A stretch of 43,387 nt of DNA, from contig JANQQJ010000011.1 in the NCBI GenBank assembly GCA_028284945.1, forward strand, positions 1-43,387, given 5' to 3'. The stretch is from Alphaproteobacteria bacterium (GTDB taxonomy: Bacteria > Pseudomonadota > Alphaproteobacteria > SMXS01). The notes below the pieces were generated by a model that saw only the letters and a program-made list of their open reading frames with translations, did not search any database and was not told the origin of the DNA. The first letter of the stretch is position 1. Each line of letters starts with the position of its first letter. The translations under genes were made by a program, and so were the position numbers. This document shows positions 9,608 to 14,979 of the stretch, one piece after another.

Positions 9608-10236
9608 TCAGGAATGAACCGGGGTCGAAACTTTCGACGAATTTGCTTGCCGTGTGGGCCTGATTCTGAAGGCCAGCAGGGCTGTCAGGATCACCGCATA
9701 GATCAGCGGCTCCGTCGTGTCGGCCTTCACCATCATGAAGAAATGAACGACGGCAAGGATGGCAGCCGGATAGACCGCCTTGTGGAGAAATCGCCAACGG
9801 CGCCCGCCCAAACGCTTCATCATCGCATTGGTCGAGGTCGCCGCTAAGGGCACCATCAGTGCAAATGTGATCATCCCGACAGTAATGAAGTTCCGTTTCA
9901 GGACATCATCCCAGATCGCATTCCAGGCAAAGCCATGGTCCAGACCGATATAGGATGATAGGTGCAGTAAGGCGTAGCCGAAGGCCATCAGGCCCGCGAC
10001 GCGGCGAAAGCGCAGCAGATCAGCGGTTTTGGTCAGCTTTGCTAACGGGCTGATCGCCAGGGTCAGCACCAGAAAGCGCAGTGCCCAGTCACCTGTTTCA
10101 CGATTGAGTGTCTCGATCGGGTTGAAGCCCAGGCCGCTGGGAAACTGCCAGGCCAGCCAGATCGCCGGCAACAGCGACAAGATCACGGCAATGGGCTTTG
10201 CTGCGCGGTGCCGCAATATGCGTTTGGCCACAGTCA

Positions 10237-10237
<1 letters not shown>
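9608..10237 (-). CDS. msrQ: MsrQ, heme-binding membrane subunit of MsrPQ
   Basis: A 209-residue ferric-reductase-like membrane protein with about six helices that passes electrons from the quinone pool or flavin reductases to MsrP. Landmarks are the N-terminal GFNPIETLNRETGDWALRFL, RFRRVAGLMAFGYALLHLSSY with a likely heme histidine, and RRWRFLHKAVYPAAILAVVHFF with further histidines. Its ATG overlaps the msrP stop (TAATG), the usual coupled arrangement of this pair. Confidence 0.95.
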
Positions 10238-11166
<929 letters not shown>

Positions 11167-11253
11167 CCGCTACTCCTGCCATTTCTATGGATCAGAGTTA
11201 GAGCCGGATCAGTTCACCCGCAATTCACCATGGCGTGAGACCGCCTGTGCCCG

Positions 11254-11721
11254 CTAGGCGAGCAGGCTGCGCAGCATCCAGGCGGTCTTTTCAGACACCT
11301 GCATGCGCTGGGTCAGCAGATCGGCGGTCGGTTCGTCAGATGCGGCTTCCGCCGTTGCAAAGACACCCCGCGCCGTCCGGGCAACGGTCTCGTGACCGGC
11401 GACCAGATTGCGAATCATATCCTCCGCAGCAGGGACGCCTTCTTCTTCGTCGATGGCGCTCAATTCGGCATAGGCCTTGTACGTGCCCGGTGCGTAGACG
11501 CCCAGTGCCCGGATGCGCTCGGCAATCTCATCAACGGCCAGGGCCAGCTCGTTATAGTGTTGCTCGAACATCAGATGCAGGGTCTGGAACATGGGGCCCG
11601 TCACATTCCAATGATAGTTATGGGTCTTCAGATAAAGCGTATAGGTGTCTGCCAGCAGATGTGACAGGCCGTCTGCGATGTCCTGGCGCTGTGTCTCTGG
11701 AATTCCAATGTCGATGTCCAT
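11254..11721 (-). CDS. dps: Dps-family ferritin-like DNA-protection protein
   Basis: A 155-residue Dps that oxidises Fe2+ with peroxide and stores iron in a dodecamer. The inter-subunit ferroxidase residues have exactly the family spacing: His37 (in NYHWNV), His49, Asp64 and Glu68. The ATG at 11721 is chosen over one at 11733 because GGAGG sits five bases before it; the upstream ATG would place that ribosome site inside the coding region. A 15-base iron-regulator-like palindrome lies just upstream. The N-terminal tail is short and lacks lysines, so direct DNA binding is uncertain. Confidence 0.95.
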
Positions 11722-11742
11722 GACTGCCTCCATGATTATTGT

Positions 11743-11799: not shown

Positions 11800-12054
11800 C
11801 TAGCCGCCGTCTGTTTCGGGATTGTTGCTGGGCTTGCGCCGTTGAACGAATCTTCTGACCGGGCCGACCGTTTTCGGATAGCGTTTGTAATAACGCAGGA
11901 ACACCCGTTTGGCCGTTCTTGACTGGCTCAAGATGATCATAGCGCCCGCCCCTGTGACCGCAATGCCGCCCGGGCCAGGAATGATCCCGATCACAGGCCC
12001 GATGGCAACAAGGACCCAGCCTGAAGACAACAATGCGATTTTCTTGACCGTCAA
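11800..12054 (-). CDS. Small PGPGW-type membrane protein
   Basis: An 84-residue protein with two hydrophobic stretches (about residues 6-25 and 27-43) around the turn GPVIGIIPGPGGIAVTGAGAMIIL, matching the PGPGW putative transmembrane family, followed by a very basic C-terminal tail (RTAKRVFLRYYKRYPK). Function in the family is unknown. The only available start is TTG at 12054: an in-frame TAG lies just upstream and GGGAAG precedes the TTG as a possible ribosome site. It is divergent from the metalloprotease gene. Confidence 0.7.
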   Translation of the reverse strand: MTVKKIALLSSGWVLVAIGPVIGIIPGPGGIAVTGAGAMIILSQSRTAKRVFLRYYKRYPKTVGPVRRFVQRRKPSNNPETDGG

Positions 12055-12079
12055 AAGCTTCCCAGCGTTGCGCTAGAGC

Positions 12080-12096
12080 ATAGTGTTGTCCACTAT
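12080..12096. promoter_or_regulatory. Inverted repeat between PGPGW gene and metalloprotease gene
   Basis: ATAGTG-TTGTC-CACTAT is a perfect 6-base-arm inverted repeat located 26 bases before the PGPGW TTG start and 74 bases before the protease ATG. It could be an operator shared by the divergent genes; no regulator is suggested by its sequence. Confidence 0.3.
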
Positions 12097-12169
12097 CTCG
12101 TGATGCACACCCTCGATAGCAAGAGTTGATTTGCCAAAATGACCGCCCGGTTGCGGATTGGATTGGGAA

Positions 12170-14026
12170 ATGGCTGGTAATAGATTGCGGCGTTTGGGCT
12201 ATGACCGAAAGGCCCTGGTAAAACGGCTGACAACCTTTGGGTATCATTTGAAAGAGCCGAAAGGACGGTCGGTCCGGGGGCGTGAAGTCGACGCCATCAA
12301 GCGCTTTCAGATTGTGCATGACCTGCCCGTGACAGGGCGTTTTAACCGTGAGACCGTTAAACGAATTTCCGCACCCCGTTGCGGCAACTCAGACGAACCC
12401 ATGATTGACAAGGCCCTTGGCGAGGCGGGTTCGTCTGCTGCTGGCTTAAGACCTGCGCAGGTAAGCGGCGGTGGGTGTCCCGGTTACGTCGATGGGAAGA
12501 TCATCAAATACCGGATTCACAGCTTTAGCGGCATGATGGACCAGGCAACAGAACGCAGCATCTACGCGTCCGCCTTTGCGATTTGGTCCAATGTCATTCA
12601 GGTGGAGTTTGCTGAAGTACAAGCCGACGAGGACTTCTACATAACCTGGACGAAGATGCTTGGGTCAGGTGTCGTCGGGCAGGCCTTTTGCAAAGCAATC
12701 CACCCACACATTGCGTTTAATCCCGGGTTTGAGTTCGGCGACAACCGAGAATGGGGAACGCATGATCTGTTTAGCATTGCTGCGCATGAAGTCGGGCATA
12801 TGTTGGGCTTTGGGCATCTGAGACCTGGCGTAATGCGTGCCACCGATCGGGCACGGCCAACGGACCCGTCCCGCGCAATACGATTTCTTACATCCAACGA
12901 TCTTGATCAGGCCTTCGGCCGCTACGCGCCTCGGGTGAACAAAGGGTCTATTCGCAATGGCCTGGTTTCCGCACGGCTGACAACGGGCGGTTTTTTTGAC
13001 GAGATTGCGCTGGTCAGGAATTCGGACGGCAACATATACGTTTTTGACGCGTCATCGGACCGCCATGTGTGGGAGAGGGGATCCAGCTGGCGGCCGGGTG
13101 CCGGGTCTGATTGGGCAGCGATGTGTACCGCAGACCTTGAAGGCGATGGCGAACAGAGCCTCGTCGCTTGCCGGAACTTCGACGGTCGTGTGGTTGCCTT
13201 GGCTTTTGATGGCCTACGCCTCGGAGAAATCGCGCGTGACCAAAGCGCCGGACCAGATCCAGGCTGGGTGCAACTTGCCGCTGGCGATTTCAAAGGCGTG
13301 GGAACCGATCAGGTCGTCGGCGTGCGCAACGGTGATGCCGCGTTTGTCCTCTTTGAATACAACGGGACAGACGAGCTTGAAATCGGTGCAAGTTATACGC
13401 TGGCCGGTCCGAGTAGCGACTGGGTCGATATCGTGGCGGGCAACTTCGATCCGGCGTACCCGGACCGAAAGGAATTGATCGCGGTTCGTAATGTCGACGG
13501 GCGCATGGAGATGTTCGCTTTTAAGGCGCCGGATCAGCTTGCTGTTGTCGCCGCGCACCCCTTTGGCGCAGCATCGAACTGGATTGCGCTGGGCGCCGGT
13601 GACCTGGATGGTGATGGCACAGACGAAATCATCGCGATGCGAGACCATGATGATGCGCTTTTTGTTATGAAATATGCTGGCAATGGCGCATTTGACGTCA
13701 TTGATAAATCAGCCTGGCATCCGAATTCCGCTTGGCGCGACCTCGCCGTGGGCGATTTCGATGGCGACGGCCTGGACGAGGTGATGGCCGTGCGCGACTA
13801 TGATAGCGGCCTGTATCTTATGAAGCTGTTCAACGGTGAATCTTTTCAGACCATCGCAAGCAACACGCAGGCTGGCCTAGATTCAAACTGGATTGGCATT
13901 GAAGCAGTCCGGGCACCCTTTCCGGTTCCCGCCCGGGCCGCCTTGATCAGGGACTTTGATGGATTGGTCCATGTTTTCAGATATGATCCAGATAGCGCAA
14001 CACTCGAACACTTCGCCAAGACATGA
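12170..14026 (+). CDS. Matrixin-like metalloprotease with cysteine switch and C-terminal propeller repeats
   Basis: A 618-residue protein built like an animal matrix metalloproteinase. Residues 5-66 form a peptidoglycan-binding-like helical domain (RLRRLGYDRKALVKRL, then EVDAIKRFQ and LPVTGRFNRET). It is followed by PRCGNSD (69-75), matching the MMP cysteine switch PRCGxPD. The metzincin catalytic motif HEVGHMLGFGH is at 206-216 with Met222 as Met-turn candidate. From about residue 260 there are seven repeats of roughly 45 residues with W...AGD.DGDG.DE...VRD.DG.L, an FG-GAP/VCBS-type propeller. No signal peptide is present and an in-frame TGA at 12140-12142 excludes an upstream one. The stop overlaps the next gene by four bases. 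Matrixin identity is strong; substrate and export route are unknown. Confidence 0.88.
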   Translation: MAGNRLRRLGYDRKALVKRLTTFGYHLKEPKGRSVRGREVDAIKRFQIVHDLPVTGRFNRETVKRISAPRCGNSDEPMIDKALGEAGSSAAGLRPAQVSGGGCPGYVDGKIIKYRIHSFSGMMDQATERSIYASAFAIWSNVIQVEFAEVQADEDFYITWTKMLGSGVVGQAFCKAIHPHIAFNPGFEFGDNREWGTHDLFSIAAHEVGHMLGFGHLRPGVMRATDRARPTDPSRAIRFLTSNDLDQAFGRYAPRVNKGSIRNGLVSARLTTGGFFDEIALVRNSDGNIYVFDASSDRHVWERGSSWRPGAGSDWAAMCTADLEGDGEQSLVACRNFDGRVVALAFDGLRLGEIARDQSAGPDPGWVQLAAGDFKGVGTDQVVGVRNGDAAFVLFEYNGTDELEIGASYTLAGPSSDWVDIVAGNFDPAYPDRKELIAVRNVDGRMEMFAFKAPDQLAVVAAHPFGAASNWIALGAGDLDGDGTDEIIAMRDHDDALFVMKYAGNGAFDVIDKSAWHPNSAWRDLAVGDFDGDGLDEVMAVRDYDSGLYLMKLFNGESFQTIASNTQAGLDSNWIGIEAVRAPFPVPARAALIRDFDGLVHVFRYDPDSATLEHFAKT

Positions 14027-14979
14027 ACTCAGAAACAACCCAGCCCCGTATCGTCTCCCTGATCGCCAGCGCTACGGAAATTGTCTGCGCCCTTGGCGCG
14101 CGGGACCGGCTATTGGGGCGGTCGCATGAATGCGATTATCCGAAATCTGTTCTCCGGCTGCCCGCGCTGACTGAACCAAAGCTTGATGTGGGCCGGTCCT
14201 CCGGTGAAATTGACCGGCAGGTCAAGGAACTGCTGACAGACGGGCTGTCGGTCTATCGGGTCGGCGTTGAGGGCCTGCGGGACATCGACCCGCATGTGAT
14301 CGTCACGCAGGACCAGTGCGAAGTTTGCGCCGCAAGCCTGGCCGACGTGGAGGCAGCCATGTGCGACTGGACGGGCCGAGATGTTGAAATCGTCTCGTTG
14401 CGGCCGGATTCACTGGCGGATTCCTGGGCCGATATCCGCCGGGTGGCCGACGCCATCGGATGTTCGGATACCGGGGCCGAACTGGTGACCCATCTGCAGG
14501 ATCGAATGCAGCACATTGCCGACATCACCAGCGATCTTCGGCCACGGCCCCGCGTCGCCTGTATCGAGTGGATCGATCCGCTCATGGCAGCCGGAAACTG
14601 GATGCCGGAACTGGTGGAAATGGCCGGGGGCAATAACCTGTTCGGTGAAGCCGGTAAACACTCCCCCTGGATGACCTGGAAGGAGTTGAGGCAGTCAGAC
14701 CCGGATGTCATCGTCGTGCTGCCCTGCGGGTTCGACATGCTGCGTGTGCTGGAAGAAATGCACCTCATTACCGGGCGCGATGGCTGGGCGGACCTGAAGG
14801 CGGTCCGTGAGGGCCAAGTCTACATCACAGATGGTAATCAGTACTTTAACCGGCCCGGCCCCAGACTTGCAGAATCACTCGAGATTCTCGCTGAAATTCT
14901 CCACCCGGATGTCTTCAGCTTTGGATTTCAGGGCGTGGGCTGGCAGCGATTTGAAATGGACGCTGCTGCCGTCAATTAG
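14023..14979 (+). CDS. Cobalamin-binding-type (BtuF-like) periplasmic-binding-fold protein, no signal peptide
   Basis: A 318-residue two-lobed helical-backbone binding protein of the BtuF/FhuD class. The N-lobe begins PRIVSLIASATEIVCALGARDRLLGRSHECDYP, with the inter-lobe region VTQDQCEVCAASLADV typical of the cobalamin-binding COG0614 branch, and the C-lobe includes ACIEWIDPLMAAGNWMPELVEMAGG. No signal peptide or lipobox precedes the domain, and no ABC permease or ATPase gene is adjacent, so a cytosolic or non-transport role is possible. It overlaps the metalloprotease by four bases (ATGA) and, convergently, the end of the double acetyltransferase gene by four bases. Confidence 0.8.
   Translation: MNSETTQPRIVSLIASATEIVCALGARDRLLGRSHECDYPKSVLRLPALTEPKLDVGRSSGEIDRQVKELLTDGLSVYRVGVEGLRDIDPHVIVTQDQCEVCAASLADVEAAMCDWTGRDVEIVSLRPDSLADSWADIRRVADAIGCSDTGAELVTHLQDRMQHIADITSDLRPRPRVACIEWIDPLMAAGNWMPELVEMAGGNNLFGEAGKHSPWMTWKELRQSDPDVIVVLPCGFDMLRVLEEMHLITGRDGWADLKAVREGQVYITDGNQYFNRPGPRLAESLEILAEILHPDVFSFGFQGVGWQRFEMDAAAVN

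Follow-up and report, generated by a model that had tools for sequence, protein, structure and literature searches.

The 43,387-nucleotide stretch of alphaproteobacterial DNA analysed here (the window) contains a long open reading frame whose predicted product combines a PG_binding_1-like prodomain, a cysteine-switch motif, a matrixin-type catalytic domain and a C-terminal FG-GAP propeller (Table 1). This is the domain order that had been read from the DNA in the original prediction, and each of the Pfam domains scores above its gathering threshold. The phototrophic host supposed there is likewise supported, since bchD and a gene for a CrtI/CrtD-type carotenoid desaturase lie in the window as well. 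Residue numbers are counted from the TTG start unless marked ATG, the ATG number being the TTG number minus four.

Table 1. Features of the protease gene and its immediate surroundings in the window.
Feature	Position	Strand	Basis and remarks
PGPGW-like membrane protein gene, upstream flank of the putative insertion	11800..12054	-	Pfam match under gathering score
Ancestral divergent intergenic leader, upstream of the putatively inserted ORF	12055..12157	.	ATAGCAAG element aligned with the next gene's leader in relatives
Protease ORF	12170..14026	+	ATG start, 618 aa; TTG start at 12158 as alternative, 622 aa
PG_binding_1-like three-helix prodomain	12200..12364	+	Pfam PF01471; model helices 13-22, 35-49, 60-67 (ATG numbering)
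PRCGNSD cysteine-switch motif	12374..12394	+	Residues 73-79; collinear with pro-MMP-1; RCGxxD invariant in alignment A4
Linker, switch to catalytic domain	12395..12487	+	Low-confidence part 12422-12469, pLDDT <50
Matrixin-type catalytic domain	12488..12931	+	Pfam PF00413, 45.6 bits; structural match to MMP-9/MMP-12
Zinc-binding motif HEVGHMLGFGH	12785..12817	+	Residues 210-220; HExGHxLGxxH positions invariant in A4
Met-turn methionine (GVM)	12833..12835	+	Met226, at the sixth position after the final zinc-ligand His
Seven FG-GAP repeats, predicted seven-bladed propeller	12950..14023	+	DLDGDG/DFDGDG calcium-type loops; 51-53 aa period
BtuF-like (Peripla_BP_2) gene, downstream	14023..14979	+	ATGA: its start overlaps the protease stop

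The reading frame is shut upstream by an in-frame TGA (12140-12142), as had been claimed, and its 622 codons are free of stops and frameshifts, with the zinc motif, the switch motif and the regular repeats all intact. No clear ribosome-binding site was found ahead of it. The protein was also said to have no signal peptide, the secretory signal being a feature of animal-type M10A proteins, and this agrees with the lack of a hydrophobic N-terminus: within the first 48 residues the highest mean hydropathy over 19 residues is -0.23. A search of the other upstream frames for a signal peptide that might be supplied from there yielded none. RTX repeats of the kind associated with type I secretion were rejected too, the count of GGxGxD being zero, and with them a feature of the serralysins (M10B). 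A short frame, MTARLRIGLGNGW followed by a stop (window 12139-12180, + strand), overlaps the protease ATG at 12170 and is possibly a leader peptide or a chance occurrence.

Assignment of the catalytic domain to Peptidase_M10 is secure, with residues 115-221 scoring well over the gathering cut-off of 24 bits, and both the HExxHxxGxxH motif and the Met-turn are present, the latter where the original prediction had placed a methionine downstream of HEVGHMLGFGH. The protein nevertheless diverges from animal enzymes in several respects. The HxD, LAHAF and AHFD ligands of the structural zinc, a site stated to be a feature of all MMPs (PMC12587646), were not found in alignment A4, where the S-loop is shorter and the loop alignment uncertain. 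There is no hemopexin Pfam match corresponding to the four-bladed domain of most animal MMPs. The branch of the window protein in the tree is extremely long (4.68), and it cannot be placed relative to the MMPs.

Upstream of the catalytic domain, residues 15-69 match PG_binding_1 with 27.0 bits against a cut-off of 23, in agreement with the PG-binding-like domain first proposed. The PRCGNSD motif that follows, whose cysteine (codon 12380-12382) is Cys75 or Cys71 in ATG numbering, corresponds to the PRCGxPD switch of animal MMPs with Ser in place of Pro, and it lies at the position that the switch occupies in the animal zymogens, as predicted. The best phmmer match in the PDB is pro-MMP-2 (E = 2e-8), to which the switch and catalytic parts align as separate stretches; with pro-MMP-1 (E = 3e-8) a single collinear alignment runs from the prodomain through PRCG to HExxH. 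A switch-like heptapeptide might arise by chance behind an unrelated helical domain, and the motif is indeed short and carries Ser where animal MMPs have Pro. However, such a chance match is discounted as extremely improbable because prodomain, switch and catalytic domain are together collinear with pro-MMP-1, rather than the motif alone being matched, and the motif is moreover invariant in distant homologues. From the switch Asp to AFxxW there are 59 residues, compared with 40 in MMP-1, and the linker with these roughly 19 additional residues is likely the activation loop.

Structure prediction was carried out for the N-terminal part and for the full-length protein. Residues 1-256 (ATG numbering), modelled on a 32-row alignment, reached a pLDDT of 77, with the linker at 85-100 (ATG) disordered at a pLDDT below 50. 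The top 17 Foldseek matches to this model were all human pro-MMP chains. With VIA-align the catalytic domain superposes on MMP-9 (Z of about 18, 2.1 Å over 139 residues), MMP-12 (Z of about 18, 2.2 Å over 140 residues) and karilysin (Z of about 17.8). Comparison with pro-MMP-9 gave a Z of 17.6 over 197 residues at an rmsd of 8.3 Å; taken together, prodomain and catalytic domain deviate from the crystal zymogens by 8-10 Å, with a different mutual orientation. In the model, therefore, prodomain and catalytic domain each have the pro-MMP fold; because their mutual placement in pro-MMPs is not reproduced, the model leaves contact between the cysteine and the zinc undecided. Given this, the longer linker and the missing structural-zinc residues, we withhold the strict MMP label and class the protease only as a Peptidase_M10 protein with a probable pro-MMP-like mode of action.

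The C-terminal half contains seven propeller-type repeats, the number originally proposed, as judged both by direct count in the sequence and by the strand groups of the model. Six units anchored by Trp lie at residues 317, 368, 420, 473, 524 and 576 and one further unit precedes them, with a spacing of 51-53 residues. FG-GAP_3 matches three stretches with 53.8 bits (cut-off 26.9). A full-length model, with a pLDDT of 64 and used for the propeller alone, has about 28 strands in some seven groups of about four. Foldseek matches to the propeller in the PDB (top E-values of 4e-10 to 8e-10) include the FG-GAP proteins KICSTOR subunit, CRTAC1 and bacterial UmbA4, so that repeats and predicted fold both correspond to an FG-GAP β-propeller. 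Judged by their sequence, the DLDGDG/DFDGDG loops resemble the calcium sites of such proteins.

Relatives of the protein are sparse. No second copy was found in its own genome, nor any relative in nine other genomes of the family; relatives with a PG-type domain were not found in the rest of a 385-genome sample of the class, and among plasmids, cultured phages and PHROG families there was likewise no match to the window protein. About 85,000 genomes were scanned with a pattern requiring a TGC codon together with MMP spacing and AFxxW; six matches were obtained, and absence from the scan is weak evidence since other codons and spacings, including those of the window protein itself, are missed. 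Two matches (L040 and L044) were rejected as not being PG-type matrixins. Three others, from a Myxococcales MAG and two Nannocystis genomes (L041, L042 and L043), have the prodomain, PRCG[LFI]PD and matrixin domain, so the same prodomain-switch-matrixin order does recur in other bacteria; it should be borne in mind that these came from a pattern requiring Cys-Gly. When 282 genomes of the Nannocystis phylum were searched with a profile, PG-type members appeared only in the Nannocystis genome itself. Like the window protein, the three have a C-terminal extension or repeats, but these are different (BTRD1 repeats in L041), and the three proteins are much more canonical in sequence, with fuller MMP metal-site residues. 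Among the M10B-like proteins of the same class, serralysins and further matrixins (L004-L009, L068-L080) have the metzincin catalytic domain in common with the window protein, are devoid of the PG prodomain and, in several cases, carry RTX-typical C-terminal repeats. The sixth match of the scan, from a Geminicoccaceae MAG, is a protein (L045:5553-7265, - strand) in which CGTPD precedes a matrixin domain and several WKG-type, propeller-like repeats. It differs from the window protein in its repeat family and in having no detectable PG-type domain, and may represent a separate occasion on which an alphaproteobacterium combined a cysteine-switch-like motif with a matrixin domain and a propeller.

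More numerous relatives were found in viral contigs. Searching these with patterns from the single protein gave no matches. Alignments with randomised decoy rows steered the scans to the switch and zinc motifs; they served to provide retrieval patterns only, and the matches obtained were confirmed by tblastn with the real protein. In this way about 35 uncultivated phage contigs of up to 205 kb (IMG/VR; L013-L029, L031, L032, L034, L035, L103-L136) were seen to encode minimal pro-matrixins of some 275 residues, leaderless and consisting of PG_binding_1, an RCGLPD switch and the matrixin domain. The genes adjoin, in the two neighbourhoods read, a holin-like gene and one for a papain-type-looking peptidase, the latter without a Pfam match. 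Among 50,697 cultured phage records there was no match to them. The phage proteins (L013-L035, L103-L136) resemble the window protein in domains, in RCGxxD, in being leaderless and in missing the HGD structural-zinc loop; they differ in length and in the absence of a propeller, and in the tree they form a tight clade separate from it.

These sequences allow the conservation of the switch to be assessed. RCGxxD is kept in all 22 viral loci whose match spans PG domain and zinc motif, a set retrieved through the zinc motif only, with no requirement for the cysteine. A second scan, whose patterns partly asked for RCG, found it in 35 of 36 contigs; the one remaining contig matches the catalytic part only. 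In alignment A4 the Arg, Cys, Gly and Asp of RCGxxD are invariant in every PG-M10 homologue seen. The loss of the cysteine from homologues otherwise intact had been put forward as an observation that would count against a switch; this check did not refute the switch, as no close homologue was found that preserves the prodomain but has another residue in place of the cysteine, and the homologues with PG and M10 domains retrieved without conditioning on the motif retain it. The samples searched yielded no homologue close enough to show selection on the cysteine itself.

The same comparisons bear on the idea that the enzyme is constitutively active and targeted to the cell wall, its N-terminal domain being a true peptidoglycan-binding anchor and Cys75 having a structural role, for example in a disulfide with Cys107. 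The domain does score as PG_binding_1, the N-terminus of one phage homologue also matches endolysin families, and disulfides are made plausible by counterparts of Cys107 and Cys178 at similar positions in L012 and in the phage proteins (A4). We nevertheless hold this to be unlikely: the cysteine is embedded in PRCGxxD as in the pro-MMPs, where the flanking Arg, Gly and Asp are also invariant among PG-M10 homologues, and the cysteines of the window protein other than Cys75 are not common to the Nannocystis and Myxococcales proteins (A4).

The arrangement of the locus suggests how the gene may have arrived. Five genomes of the sister genus have Dps, the PGPGW gene and the BtuF-like gene in the same order with the protease absent; the gap of about 80-100 bp between the latter two genes is exactly what the protease ORF fills in the window, and ahead of the protease the leader sequence belonging to the BtuF-like gene (TATCT...ATAGCAAG) is retained. 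These sequences are most simply read as an insertion of the gene, apparently a recent one, in this lineage, with loss in the sister genus an alternative that the comparison also allows. Horizontal acquisition would form part of the best explanation, and the promoter that originally served the BtuF-like gene may now drive expression of the protease. Base composition was rejected as a mark of transfer, the G+C content of 55-60% being similar to that of the neighbours. Adjoining the insertion site are genes for MsrP/MsrQ methionine sulfoxide repair proteins and Dps (window 9608-11733, - strand). As MsrP and MsrQ are present in one of the sister genome stretches and Dps in all five, these are ancestral neighbours lying outside the inserted unit.

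The protease could be a transient, possibly non-functional accessory gene that is decaying after being severed from its export signal, a view that fits the sporadic distribution in family and class samples, the long branch, the missing structural-zinc ligands and the absence of both a signal peptide and a clear ribosome-binding site. On the other side stand the full set of open codons with catalytic motif, switch and repeats intact, the stop-start overlap with the next gene and the G+C content matching that of the neighbours; since the phage homologues likewise have no leader, a missing signal peptide alone is no sign of decay. On balance, decay appears unlikely.

The interpretation that we favour, and consider reasonably probable, is of a horizontally acquired, leaderless and divergent matrixin zymogen, latched by a thiol and equipped with an FG-GAP binding module. 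Following established MMP biology, the three-helix prodomain would place PRCGNSD across the active-site cleft, and the protease would be kept latent by the thiol of Cys75 acting as a ligand of the catalytic zinc. Activation could then occur by cleavage of the long flexible linker (approximately residues 80-110) or by oxidation or displacement of the thiol, and the propeller in the place of hemopexin would act as a substrate- or surface-binding module. Since there is no signal peptide, the protease might act in the cytoplasm, exit by a leaderless route or be freed on lysis. Some points count against such a latch. The modelled orientation mismatch with crystal zymogens and the missing structural-zinc ligands are two; four further cysteines could be partners for Cys75; and reconciling a free thiol with export and calcium-type loops would require the compartment to be known. 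The protease could also be redox-gated and intracellular or lysis-released, derived from the leaderless pro-matrixin stock of large phages, its latch shut in the reducing cytosol and opened by oxidation of Cys75. If so, the phototroph would have gained a protease triggered by photooxidative stress or released by lysis, a scenario we regard as quite improbable.

In matrixins, the cysteine switch is regarded as a trait of animal, plant and fungal MMPs. Compared with the animal pro-MMPs of known structure (MMP-1, -2 and -9; PDB 1su3, 1ck7 and 5ue4), the thiol-latched zymogen favoured here shows the same succession of three-helix prodomain, PRCGxxD, matrixin domain and C-terminal propeller at an identity of about 25-30%. 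It differs in being leaderless, in the longer linker and absent structural-zinc ligands, and in having a seven-repeat FG-GAP propeller where they have a four-bladed hemopexin domain. The layout is both real and rare. The protein is not, however, the mimic of an animal enzyme that it was first taken for, being a distant Peptidase_M10 homologue in a setting where bacterial matrixins are widespread, with more than 1000 species having them (PMC12587646).

Among bacterial metzincins, karilysin from Tannerella forsythia, the bacterial MMP of known structure, has a similar catalytic domain, but its latency depends on an aspartate switch located in a pro-segment of 14 residues (PMC6949598) rather than on a full prodomain and a cysteine. 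Cysteine switches are present in mirolysin, of the pappalysin family, and myroilysin, of the astacin family (PMC6949598); unlike the window protein, these belong to other families and have short pro-segments, with no PG-type prodomain. In the open-access literature, which was partially covered, no description was found of a prokaryotic matrixin with PG prodomain and PRCGxxD, nor of a version with an FG-GAP propeller or encoded by a phage. Prokaryotic pro-matrixins bear on the open question of a bacterial origin of MMPs (PMC12587646) because the main text of that work mentions neither propeptide nor switch. PG prodomain, PRCGxxD and matrixin occur together in a phototroph as well as in myxobacteria and uncultivated phages, which suggests a greater age or mobility of the animal zymogen design than has been assumed, and a replacement of hemopexin by an FG-GAP propeller would amount to a natural experiment in exosite exchange.

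Phage-encoded minimal pro-MMPs seem to be undescribed and may prove more interesting than the window protein. A further viral contig (L030:2791-3513, + strand) encodes a matrixin whose N-terminus is signal-like and whose very short pro-segment contains CLCGVPD, which is possibly a minimal cysteine switch dispensing with the PG-type domain.
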